Assembly: GCF_003148625.1 (NCBI RefSeq)
Contig: NZ_QGGO01000015.1
Span: 59,741-123,740 of the forward strand
DNA from: Arcicella aurantiaca
GTDB lineage: Bacteria > Bacteroidota > Bacteroidia > Cytophagales > Spirosomataceae
Direction of reading: 5' to 3'
Length of the DNA: 64,000 nucleotides
Below, piece by piece: positions 9,379 to 37,507 of the stretch. The first letter of the stretch is position 1, and the number at the start of each line of letters is the position of its first letter. A program made the position numbers and the translations under genes. The notes below the pieces were generated by a model that saw nothing but the letters and a program-made list of their open reading frames with translations, had not been told where the DNA came from and searched no databases.

Positions 9379-9408
9379 AATTTTGAATGAATTAAAATTT
9401 CAAAATTT

Positions 9409-10225
9409 CGGTAGATTAAAATCTACCGCTACAAAATGCTCCGAGCCGACGGCTCTTGTAAAAAACCAAGCTCAACAAGTTCCGTAGGAACGGACAATTG
9501 GGTAAAAACGGATTTTAATCCGTTGAATATTTAACATTTCGGTAGATTAAAATCTACCGCTACAAAATGCTCCGAGCCGACGGCTCTTGTAAAAAACCAA
9601 GCTCAACAAGTTCCGTAGGAACGGACAATTGGGTAAAAACGGATTTTAATCCGTTGAATATTTAACATTTCGGTAGATTAAAATCTACCGCTACAAAATG
9701 CTCCGAGCCTAAGGCTCTTGAAAAATTATGAATAGCAGACCAACAAGTTCCGTAGGAACGGACAATTTGGTAGCAACGGATTTTAATCCGTTGACGATTA
9801 TAAAATCAGCAGACCAACAAGTTCCGTAGGAACGGACAATTGGGTAACAACGGATTTTAATCCGTTGGTAATTATAAAATAAGCAGCCCTACAAGTTCCG
9901 TAGGAACGGACAATTGGGTACCAACGGATTTTAATCCGTTGGTAATTATAAAATAAGCAGCCCTACAAGTTCCATAGGAACGGACAATTGGGTAACAACG
10001 GATTTTAATCCGTTGGTAATTATAAAATAAGCAGCCCTACAAGTTCCGTAGGAACGGACAATTGGGTACCAACGGATTTTAATCCGTTGGTAATTATAAA
10101 ATAAGCAGCCCTACAAGTTCCATAGGAACGGACAATTGGGTAACAACGGATTTTAATCCGTTGACGATTATAAATTAGAATTCCAACGGACAATTTGGTA
10201 ACAACGGATTTTAATCCGTTGATTG
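9409..10225. repeat. Hairpin-rich tandem array, 131-bp and 74-bp units
   Basis: Two identical 131-bp units (9409-9539, 9540-9670) and a diverged third start at 9671 are followed by a 74-bp register with unit starts at 9744, 9818, 9892, 9966, 10040 and 10114, then a truncated unit to 10225. Each unit is a string of short palindromes: GGTAGATTAAAATCTACC, GAGCCGACGGCTC, GTTCCGTAGGAAC and CAACGGATTTTAATCCGTTG. The 74-bp units alternate (GTTCCG with GGTACC, GTTCCA with GGTAAC), showing that a 148-bp dimer (9892-10039) was itself duplicated. The array ends 45 bp before an IS200-like transposase and contains no credible gene. Confidence 0.95.
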
Positions 10226-10270
10226 ACGATGCAATACATTACAACTCTTCACACTTAATAAAATTAAAAA

Positions 10271-10732
10271 ATGGCAAATACCTATCATCAAATCTATCTA
10301 CAAACAGTTTTTGCAGTAAAATATCGAAACGCAGTAATTGACAAATCTTGGCAAAGCGAATTATTTGCTGTCATTGGAAATTTAATAAATGAAACAGGAT
10401 GTAAAACAATCATTGTTAACGGCGTAGAAGACCATGTTCATTGTTTTTTGGGATTAAAACCAGTTGTTTCCGTTTCAGAATTAATGAAAACGGTCAAAGC
10501 TAAATCATCAAAACATATAAATGACCATTCCTTAACACCAGAAAGATTTGAATGGCAAGAAGGTTACGGTGTATTTTCTTATGGACAATCACAAATTGAC
10601 AATGTTTATAAATACATTCAAAATCAAGAAGAGCATCATAAAAAGCAAACCTTTGAACAGGAGTATCTAAATTTTCTTAACAAATTCAATGTGCCTTATG
10701 ATGAACAATATATTTTTAAAGAATTAGCATAA
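10271..10732 (+). CDS. tnpA: IS200/IS605-type Y1 transposase (TnpA-like)
   Basis: A 153-residue single-strand HUH transposase. The metal-binding HUH motif is DHVHCFLGL (H55, H57). The nucleophile is predicted to be Y115 in KYIQNQ, with Q119 four residues later, matching the Y/Q pair of characterised IS200/IS605 TnpA proteins. Length and the closing YDEQYIF are typical of a very common Bacteroidota variant. It appears intact. No tnpB follows, and the downstream 51 bp hold no hairpin, so a standard IS200 left/right end pair is not evident. The only hairpins are in the array upstream, which I infer to be its substrate or product. It sits between glycosidase genes on the same strand. Confidence 0.92.
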   Translation: MANTYHQIYLQTVFAVKYRNAVIDKSWQSELFAVIGNLINETGCKTIIVNGVEDHVHCFLGLKPVVSVSELMKTVKAKSSKHINDHSLTPERFEWQEGYGVFSYGQSQIDNVYKYIQNQEEHHKKQTFEQEYLNFLNKFNVPYDEQYIFKELA

Positions 10733-10783
10733 ATATCTTACAGAACTACGGAAGGTTTCAATTTATCATCTAAACAAAACGCT

Positions 10784-14786: not shown

Positions 14787-14893
14787 AGGTTTTAGGGATT
14801 AGTTGTTAGTAAAAAACGCATGATTCATAAAAACACTAACATAAATTACTAAAACCTAAAACCCAACCCCTAAAACCCAACCCCTAAAACCTC
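14787..14893. repeat. Heptamer-register inverted tract
   Basis: Left part reads TAGGTTT TAGGGAT TAGTTGT TAGTAAA; right part reads CCTAAAA CCCAACC CCTAAAA CCCAACC CCTAAAA. Both keep a 7-bp register, and the right part is roughly the reverse complement of the left. It lies just after the glycosidase stop codon. Confidence 0.8.
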
Positions 14894-19151: not shown

Positions 19152-19955
19152 ATGCACAATATTCCTACTTACACGTTAGAGCAACTTTATCGTAAATGTT
19201 TGGAAGCTGTTAATCATATTTCTGGGGTAGCTTCTGAAAAATCAATAGAAAAGTATTTACAAGAAATGGGGTTTTTCAATAAAGATACTACTTATCTAAA
19301 TGCAGTTTATGGCATTATGGATATGAGTAATCTGTCTTTTAGGTACATTGCTAATACAGAAATCTCTTTGGGAATTTCCGAAGAAGATTTTATGCAGAAA
19401 GGGTTTAGCCAGTTTTTAAAAACAATGACTCCTGAGATGAAAAATATCTCTGCAATTCCTACGCTTTTTAGTTATATGATTGATTCCATTAAAGAAGCTC
19501 CTAAAGAAATCCAACAAAATTTTGTTGCCTACGGATACGGAATGAAACATTTTAGACCAAGCGGAAAAGCTTTCCATACAATGGTGCAAATATTTGGTTT
19601 AGAATATGACAGCAATGGTTTTCCTACTTTATGCTTTATTGTTGACCAAGATATTGACCATCTTATCAAACCTACCGACCAATATTGGGGAAGAATCAGT
19701 TTTAATAATGGCGACTTTATAACCACCTTTTCTTCAAAAGAAATGGAGATGAAAAAACAAGATATTTTTTCAAAAAGAGAATTGGATGTTCTTAAATTAT
19801 TACTGAAAGGGCAAGAATCTAAACAAATTGCAGACAAACTTTTTATCAGCCCAAATACGGTGGATAATCATCGAAAAAATATGATTCGGAAATTGGACGC
19901 CCGAGATACTACGGCATTGGTACAATTAACAAAGCAATTAGGAATTTTGAGGTGA
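19152..19955 (+). CDS. LuxR-type transcriptional regulator
   Basis: A 267-residue regulator. The C-terminal 65 residues are a LuxR/GerE helix-turn-helix (SKRELDVLKLLLKGQESKQIADKLF then SPNTVDNHRKNMIRKL). The N-terminal 190 residues have no receiver motif; they probably form a PAS-like sensor domain, as in many Bacteroidota LuxR proteins. It stands alone, so its targets are unknown. The stop codon TGA lies in the first GTGAGTT unit of the tandem tract that follows, so repeat growth touches the gene end. Confidence 0.88.
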   Translation: MHNIPTYTLEQLYRKCLEAVNHISGVASEKSIEKYLQEMGFFNKDTTYLNAVYGIMDMSNLSFRYIANTEISLGISEEDFMQKGFSQFLKTMTPEMKNISAIPTLFSYMIDSIKEAPKEIQQNFVAYGYGMKHFRPSGKAFHTMVQIFGLEYDSNGFPTLCFIVDQDIDHLIKPTDQYWGRISFNNGDFITTFSSKEMEMKKQDIFSKRELDVLKLLLKGQESKQIADKLFISPNTVDNHRKNMIRKLDARDTTALVQLTKQLGILR

Positions 19956-20028
19956 GTTGTGAGTTGTGAGTTGTGAGTTGTGAGTTGTGAGTTGTGAGTT
20001 GTGAGTTGTGAGTTGTGAGTTGTGAGTT
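19952..20028. repeat. Perfect heptamer tandem repeat (GTGAGTT x11)
   Basis: Eleven exact copies, 77 bp. The first copy supplies the TGA stop of the LuxR gene. Such a perfect array is likely to vary in copy number between strains. Confidence 0.97.
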
Positions 20029-23242: not shown

Positions 23243-23693
23243 GAATGAGGAAAGTCAGGGAAATGAGGGGATGAGGATTTGAGTTTATGAGGATATGAGT
23301 GATGAGTCTATGAGTCTATGAGTCTATGAGTCTATGAGTCTATGAGTATGTGAGGATATGAGTGATGAGTATATGAGTCTATGAGTATTTGAGTGATGAG
23401 GATATGAGTATATGAGTATATGAGTGATGAGTATATGAGGATATGAGTGATGAGTATATGAGGATATGAGTGATGAGTATATGAGTATATGAGTATATGA
23501 GTGATGACCTCCTCCATCACCCCTTAATCCTTAATCCATAAACTCAAATCCTCACATACTCAAATCATCAAATCATCACATACTCAAATCATCACATACT
23601 CAAATCCTCATAGACTCACATACTCAAATCTTCAAATACTCAAATCATCAAATACTCAAATCATCAAATCCTCATAGACTCACATCCTCCCTA
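23243..23693. repeat. Long imperfect tandem tract with inverted halves (ATGAG / CTCAT)
   Basis: About 450 bp of degenerate 7- and 8-bp units. The left half (to about 23507) reads TATGAGTC, TATGAGTA, GATATGAG and TGATGAG; the right half (about 23519-23693) reads CTCAAATC, CTCACATA and CTCATAGA, roughly the reverse complement. The strand switch is at 23507-23520 (CCTCCTCCATCACC). Folded back, it could form a very long imperfect hairpin. The TGA stop of the TrmH-type gene (23680-23682) lies inside the tract. Confidence 0.92.
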
Positions 23694-32084: not shown

Positions 32085-32180
32085 ATAATTGATAATTGGC
32101 AATTAATAATGAACAATTATTAACTGCCAATTATCAATTGTAGATTATCAATTAAAAATTATCAACTGTCAATTATTCTC
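32083..32180. repeat. Heptamer-register inverted tract between SGNH genes
   Basis: About thirteen consecutive 7-bp units of the form TnnnAAT (TGATAAT, TGGCAAT, TAATAAT, TATCAAT, TGTCAAT and so on). The first half (ATTGATAATTGGCAATTAAT) is complementary to the second (TGCCAATTATCAATTG), allowing a hairpin. It starts at the stop codon of the first SGNH gene and ends at the start of the second, so it fills the whole spacer within the operon. Confidence 0.9.
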
Positions 32181-37208: not shown

Positions 37209-37507
37209 TCTGAACTATGATTTGTTGGATTGGATGATTTTAGGAGTATTTATCTATCTGAACTATAATTTGTTGGATTAAATAATTTTAGGATTTTAAA
37301 AAACAGAAATCCAAAAATCTTTAAATCTAATAAATCATAGTTCTAATATTTACTACTTTGATGATGAAAGATTATTTTCAAAAAACAGAAATCCAAAAAT
37401 CTTTAAATCTAATAAATCATAGTTCTAATATTTACTACTTCGATGAAAGATTATTTTCAAAAAACAGAAATCCAAAAATCTTTAAATCTAATAAATCATA
37501 GTTCAGA
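37209..37507. repeat. Complex repeat: inverted TCTGAACTATGATTT ends around an 82-bp tandem
   Basis: TCTGAACTATGATTTGTTGG (37209-) and a second TCTGAACTATAATTTG (37257-) face three right-hand copies ending in AAATCATAGTTC. The right-hand part is a tandem unit with CAGAAATCCAAAAATC at 37304, 37386 and 37465 (spacing 82 then 79 bp, the latter lacking GAT). The outermost arms 37209-37231 and 37485-37507 pair at 21 of 23 positions. It fills the 308-bp gap between convergent genes. Confidence 0.9.

Follow-up and report, generated by a model that had tools for sequence, protein, structure and literature searches.

The window analysed here, a stretch of 64,000 nucleotides from Arcicella aurantiaca, carries an array of short palindromes immediately upstream of an intact transposase gene of the Y1 (HUH) type. 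This arrangement raises the question of whether the array and the enzyme belong together, as the original prediction held, and of what each would be to the other. The evidence that array and transposase type are linked is strong: it comes from position, from specificity with respect to other Y1 genes, from co-variation along the transposase tree and from joint absence in one sister genome. The link extends to relatives of the gene. The reading favored below, to which a probability of about 0.7 can be given, is that of a REPtron-like cassette in which an IS200-like single-stranded DNA transposase is accompanied by an array of its own putative recognition units.

The array and its transposase in the window

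The hairpin array spans approximately positions 9405 to 10221 and comprises three minus-strand and eight plus-strand units, all upstream of tnpA. A single type of unit recurs throughout, in which hairpin A, with a 5-bp stem and a 3-nt loop, is separated by 10 nt from a four-base tag, and the tag is followed by the roughly 20-nt palindrome called hairpin B. In the minus-strand units, hairpin A is GAGCC-GTC-GGCTC (9443-9455, with copies at 9574-9586 and 9705-9717), GTAG follows after 10 nt and hairpin B comes directly after it (9409-9428, with copies at 9540-9559 and 9671-9690). In the plus-strand units, hairpin A is GTTCC-GTA-GGAAC (9747-9759, the others starting at 9479, 9610, 9821, 9895, 9969, 10043 and 10117). 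The GTAG at 9770-9773, 10 nt after hairpin A, abuts hairpin B, CAACGGATTTTAATCCGTTG (9774-9793), which is present in nine copies, the last at 10202-10221. The tag reads GTAG in 3/3 minus units; among the eight plus units it reads GTAG once, GTAA five times and GTAC twice. When folded as single-stranded DNA, the plus unit (9743-9796) and the minus unit (9405-9462) reached z scores of -4.7 and -4.0, respectively, with 0/200 shuffles as good, and a one-hairpin unit taken from a relative (L032) reached only -1.9 (9/200 shuffles as good).

The nested periods of the array are simply explained by this unit, since the 74-bp repeat is one plus unit and each 131-bp repeat is one minus and one plus unit, an inverted pair as in a BIME. 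The claims first made about these repeats largely stand. The four kinds of palindrome were recovered, namely GTTCC-NNN-GGAAC (eight times), AACGG..CCGTT (nine times), GAGCC-NNN-GGCTC and CGGTAG..CTACCG (three times each). The 131-bp repeat (9405-9709, unstranded) was scored by Tandem Repeats Finder at 3.0 copies with 93% matches (score 656). Shifted by 131, the sequence is identical to itself over 9405-9578 (174 nt), so that two 131-bp units are indeed identical and a third matches over its first 43 nt or so before diverging. Six 74-bp repeats were also found as described (9734-10177, plus strand; 6.0 copies, 95% matches, score 763); repeats 3 and 5 are identical, and 4 positions distinguish repeat 4 from repeat 6. 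The proposed copying of a 148-bp dimer is real, with a perfect run at a shift of 148 over 9827-10015 (189 nt), but the blocks assigned to it, 9892-10039 and 10040-10187, differ at 12 positions. Elsewhere in the window, units of 7, 8 and 14 bp and their multiples form simple tandem arrays that are unrelated to the hairpin array (1-43, 133-172, 14855-14891, 19952-20028, 23271-23686 and 32114-32177), and a 79-bp repeat lies at 37293-37504 (2.6 copies, 96% matches).

Between the end of the last palindrome (10221) and tnpA (10271-10732, plus strand) lie 49 bp, which confirms the adjacency first observed. The gene is intact and codes for a Y1/HUH transposase of 153 residues (PF01797 Y1_Tnp, E 5.8e-28). 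Its motifs DHVH, WQ and YIQNQEEHH agree with the pattern DH[IV]H, WQ and Y---Q--HH, and on these motifs the protein would fall into TnpA-Y1 subclass 1.2. According to the parts of Quentin et al. 2018 relied on here, the median length in this subclass is 148 residues and Bacteroidetes are among the hosts (PMC6006769), so length, motifs and host all agree. Residues H55, H57, Y115, Q119, H122 and H123 are invariant in 9 aligned sequences and invariant or at least 90% conserved in 31. Sequence comparison relates the protein to IS200-type entries of the PDB, among them IS608 and ISDra2. The AlphaFold2 model (pLDDT 92.2) has the IS608 and ISDra2 TnpA proteins as its top PDB fold matches; TnpA-REP 4er8 comes 30th among the fold matches and is absent from the 8 PDB sequence matches at E 0.001. 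A search of phage records gave 9, all with less than 60% identity.

The whole-genome search for units that had been suggested was fruitful: the array sequence recurs at 16 other sites of the same genome, several of which are inverted pairs. The strict window-type pattern gave 13 matches in this genome, of which 10 lie beyond the array. The remaining 149 genomes of the family yielded 3 single matches against 4 for the reversed control, a number not above that control, and none of the 150 family genomes was matched when the spacer was one base shorter (an unplanned spacer control). By protein search, the genome holds one other relative of tnpA, 42% identical, beside a different hairpin array that has only 3 weak matches elsewhere in the genome.

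In the sister genome (G003), the orthologue of the downstream gene (96% identical protein) lies in the same neighbourhood and both the array and the transposase gene are absent, only 10 nt separating the stretches (L190) that match the window flanks with 86% and 90% identity. The cassette formed by array and gene (9398-10768, unstranded, with approximate ends) is missing as one piece, which may reflect either a gain in the window or a loss in the sister genome. The edges of the cassette do not fall on GTAG.

Hairpin units beside related transposases

It had been proposed to look for arrays beside the same transposase type in related genomes, and most of the relatives surveyed do have hairpin units of similar form with sequences of their own. 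Among 80 named loci, the best 80 of at least 564 relatives, the common unit consists of a hairpin (stem of 5 bp, loop of 3-4 nt) followed after 9 or 10 nt by NTA(A/G). At these best 80 loci, repeated hairpins occupy 89/157 gene-side windows (up to 800 bp) against 26/412 distant windows, hairpin density irrespective of repetition is 9.4 per kb near the gene and 1.18 per kb far from it, and GTAG at offset 9 after a hairpin was counted 93 times near and once far. Strict units (GTAG at 9 or 10 nt, within 1 kb of the gene) were present at 40/80 loci (125 units) and in 0/273 far windows, loose units (NTA(A/G) at 9 or 10 nt) at 78/80 loci and in 18/273 far windows, and at least two loose units at 73/80 loci and in 3/273 far windows. 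These three comparisons, all on the best 80 of at least 564 loci, set up to 2 kb per locus against far windows of 1 kb each that are more coding. As controls, GTAG at 13 or 14 nt gave 2/80 loci against 3/273 far windows, GATG 6/80 against 4/273 and GATC 5/80 against 3/273; TAGG, which overlaps a shifted GTAG, gave 15/80 against 1/273. When loop, spacer and tag were anchored and the arms left free, full pairing was found in 37/124, 42/124 and 16/42 cases near the gene against 0/52, 0/52 and 0/46 far from it, and at stem positions 1 to 4 compensatory changes replace one type of base pair by another.

Loose units were lacking at two of the 80 loci, L056 and L068, although the latter does have a repeated unit, whose A/T-rich stem was dropped by the filter. 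No units were found at the deep-branching relatives L036-L038; L036, L039 and L040 are 33-38% identical in the protein alignment. Other arrangements were seen at L036-L040 and L144, all deep-branching, and at L039 the gene is bracketed by long, nearly perfect palindromes. Two relatives are plasmid-borne, one with two GTAG units (L194) and one with none (L195).

Among the Y1 loci compared, the strict units are specific to this transposase type. They were found at none of the 32 other Y1 loci (0/5 in the same genome and 0/27 in genomes of the family f18, where class 1 relatives may account for a few of the 27), and at none of the 8 IS200/IS605 control loci. Loose-tag matches occurred at 4/32 and 3/8 of these loci, respectively, none of the latter with GTAG. 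The three f18 loci that do have units are those of close relatives of the window TnpA. Many Y1 genes at the f18 loci L163-L188 have open frames of about 300-350 codons and lack strict units.

The form of the unit also changes with the protein. In the window's clade of the transposase tree (27 rows), 23 rows have a spacer of 10 nt, 3 one of 9 nt and 1 none; in the neighbouring group (78 rows), 74 have one of 9 nt, 2 one of 10 nt and 2 none. A second palindrome follows GTAG at 9/9 ten-nt loci and at 1/31 nine-nt loci. At some ten-nt loci (e.g. L049, L054), the leading unit picked by the script is the second palindrome itself. By Mantel tests on 80 loci with a protein of more than 100 residues and a leading unit present at least twice, a sample that differs from the best-80 set, protein identity is followed by the stem (r 0.40) and the spacer (r 0.37; 0/2000 permutations as high for both) and by the tag (r 0.18, 2/2000); loop length does not follow it (141/2000). 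These Mantel and tree figures overstate the certainty because related sequences are not independent. Less open to this bias is the contrast between paralogues of the same genome, 4/4 pairs of which differ in stem, spacer or tag, one pair sharing the stem; the count omits five same-genome pairs that join a close relative to a deep-branching one. Rows were omitted for L132, L137 and L138 (gene not located), for L121 and L035 (duplicate and near-duplicate) and for L051 (dropped by the tree program). Two loci from contigs labelled Anaerolineales (L090) and Thalassobius (L099) fall inside the Bacteroidota group of the tree, pointing to transfer or mis-binned contigs. A pairing between guide and cut site of the IS608 type was rejected as a candidate: regardless of the tag, A predominates among the four bases 5' of the hairpin, and no guide clearly changing with the tag was detected.

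Could the units be the decayed ends of an IS200/IS605 element, multiplied by replication slippage only and devoid of any REP-like role? The nearest relatives of the window TnpA in both sequence and fold are the IS608 and ISDra2 proteins, array length differs between near relatives, and at 3/8 IS200/IS605 controls (L199 (2055), L201 (2062) and L202 (2032)) a hairpin is followed by 9-10 nt and TTAG about 115-130 nt after the gene, in two cases on the strand of the gene and in one on the opposite strand, with the spacing seen in the array units. Decayed ends are hard to reconcile, however, with several units of the same type per locus, with dispersed units that have no gene beside them and with stems kept paired by compensatory changes. 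Near-identical copies with matching ends, a trait of IS200/IS605 elements, were not found in the Arcicella genome either, its two gene copies being only 42% identical, although up to 12 matches per genome occur in the family. This explanation is rather unlikely.

Unlikely too is a role at the RNA level, the hairpins attenuating or stabilising the mRNA of the transposase or of its neighbours instead of serving as DNA substrates. Eight of the 11 units of the window lie upstream of tnpA on its strand, and conserved pairing suits RNA as well as single-stranded DNA. Against this, the GTAG units of the 80 loci are distributed about equally over both sides of the gene and both strands (33 upstream plus, 25 upstream minus, 33 downstream plus, 34 downstream minus), dispersed copies lie far from the gene, a fixed unpaired tag is hard to square with termination, and a scan of Rfam returned no family at gathering score, the weak matches being judged chance.

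Units and genes across the phylum

Relatives of the gene were found at E 0.001 in 192/395 genomes sampled from the phylum, a count for which at most 9 candidates were scored per genome and 'without' means every genome absent from the match list, and in 114/150 family genomes. Units with an RYCCC stem occur in 72/395 genomes and their reversed control in none. The original prediction was to be judged by units in genomes devoid of the gene. Outside f18, the association it foresaw was found, with RYCCC units in 40/168 genomes with the gene against 3/141 without it (Fisher 5e-9). Inside f18, it failed (7/24 against 22/62, p 0.62), and 157/265 RYCCC matches of this family lie in genomes without the gene. 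Over all 395 genomes the association is much weaker than outside f18 (47/192 against 25/203, p 0.0025), and f18 was set apart only after the counts were known. The f18 genomes are small and, judging by the gene content of one stretch, presumably those of green sulfur bacteria. Three of them (G361, G357 and G377) have 19, 4 and 5 pattern matches and no detected Y1 gene, so that their repeats are orphans.

The f18 counts are the chief result against a simple reading, the units of this family either outliving the gene or coming from another source. That another enzyme spreads the units, which would merely gather beside tnpA, is nevertheless very improbable: it would account for the f18 genomes with units and no gene, but the other Y1 genes of the same genomes lack strict units, units vary with the transposase clade rather than with the genome, and the association outside f18 is pronounced.

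Relation to REPtrons and IS200/IS605 elements

The cassette of the window shares much with REPtrons, which associate a RAYT (class 2 TnpA-REP) with REP, BIME or REPIN sequences. In both, short hairpin repeats bearing a GTAG-like tag flank a Y1 transposase, the repeats are dispersed and arranged in inverted pairs, and each transposase has its own repeat family. The differences are threefold. The window protein carries a class 1 type Y...Q..HH motif, YIQNQEEHH, where a class 2 Y motif would end in NP. The REP tag, GT[AG]G, stands at the 5' foot of its hairpin, whereas here 9-10 nt separate hairpin A from a tag on its 3' side. Finally, a long tandem array adjoins the window gene. The cassette is therefore REPtron-like and not a member of the REPtrons, because the class 2 motif is absent and the geometry of hairpin A and tag looks mirrored. 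In the window's clade, the tag and the abutting second palindrome, taken alone, resemble a canonical GTAG REP.

With IS200/IS605 elements such as IS608 and ISDra2, the window TnpA has the HUH/Y1 fold and motifs in common. It had been noted that the gene lacks ordinary ends of its own, and indeed no single pair of left and right ends was seen, in contrast to IS200/IS605; many repeated units take their place. IS200/IS605 elements are cleaved as single-stranded DNA 3' of a tetranucleotide that a guide selects, but no guide/cut pairing was detected here. That claim needs a qualification, as a hairpin followed at a fixed distance by a short motif recalls a right end, here repeated. Hairpin A, spacer and tag would by analogy correspond to the right end of an IS200/IS605 element and hairpin B, after the tag, to its left end. 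Since a right-end-like part would precede a left-end-like one, a tandem array would consist of successive junctions of a right with a left end.

Subclass 1.2 itself generally lacks typical terminal IS200 structures, and its entry under REP in the table of Quentin et al. 2018 is 'no', as far as the parts drawn upon here go (PMC6006769). Units are in contrast the rule at the relatives surveyed here (loose at 78 and GTAG at 40 of the best 80 of at least 564 loci). No earlier description of such units with subclass 1.2 was found in the literature covered, mainly open-access and including parts of PMC3733652, PMC6006769, PMC8266576, PMC12306157, PMC5934647 and PMC2817692.

In the REPtron-like cassette proposed here, TnpA would bind the hairpin on the single-stranded DNA of the lagging strand, with the tag as its cut site or close to it. 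Units would in this way be copied, inserted, multiplied or removed, which would account for the tandem arrays next to the gene as well as for the dispersed or inverted copies at other places. The unit recognized would have a 10-nt spacer and a second palindrome right after the tag in the window's clade, and a 9-nt spacer in the other relatives. We infer that TnpA binds the hairpin and cuts at or near the tag by analogy with IS608, for which cut sites and guides are given in part of PMC5934647, and with TnpA-REP, for which the portions of PMC8266576 relied on describe a GTAG tag and CT/CA cut sites; that the protein would also spread the units is likewise proposed. Tandem growth may alternatively result from replication slippage. 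The array-length differences between near relatives are compatible with more than one cut point, because a tandem duplication can be placed in several registers.

Extended to the subclass as a whole, this proposal is still probable: subclass 1.2 would be a separate class of REPtron with a mirrored geometry, the hairpin preceding the tag by 9-10 nt. Repeatedly within Bacteroidota, the stem, the spacer and the tag would have diverged alongside the protein, forming a natural library of matched single-stranded DNA hairpin endonucleases and their targets. The biochemistry of REP spread stems from three class 2 enzymes, from E. coli, Stenotrophomonas and Marinomonas, according to the sections of PMC8266576 relied on. 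The spread of REP sequences is unsettled, and a separate Y1 lineage with co-varying units would test the REPtron idea independently. If the proposal is true, the presence of relatives in about half of the sampled genomes of the phylum would offer many matched enzyme-target pairs from which to learn how HUH enzymes read hairpins, and part of the intergenic palindromes of Bacteroidota may be explained by such units.
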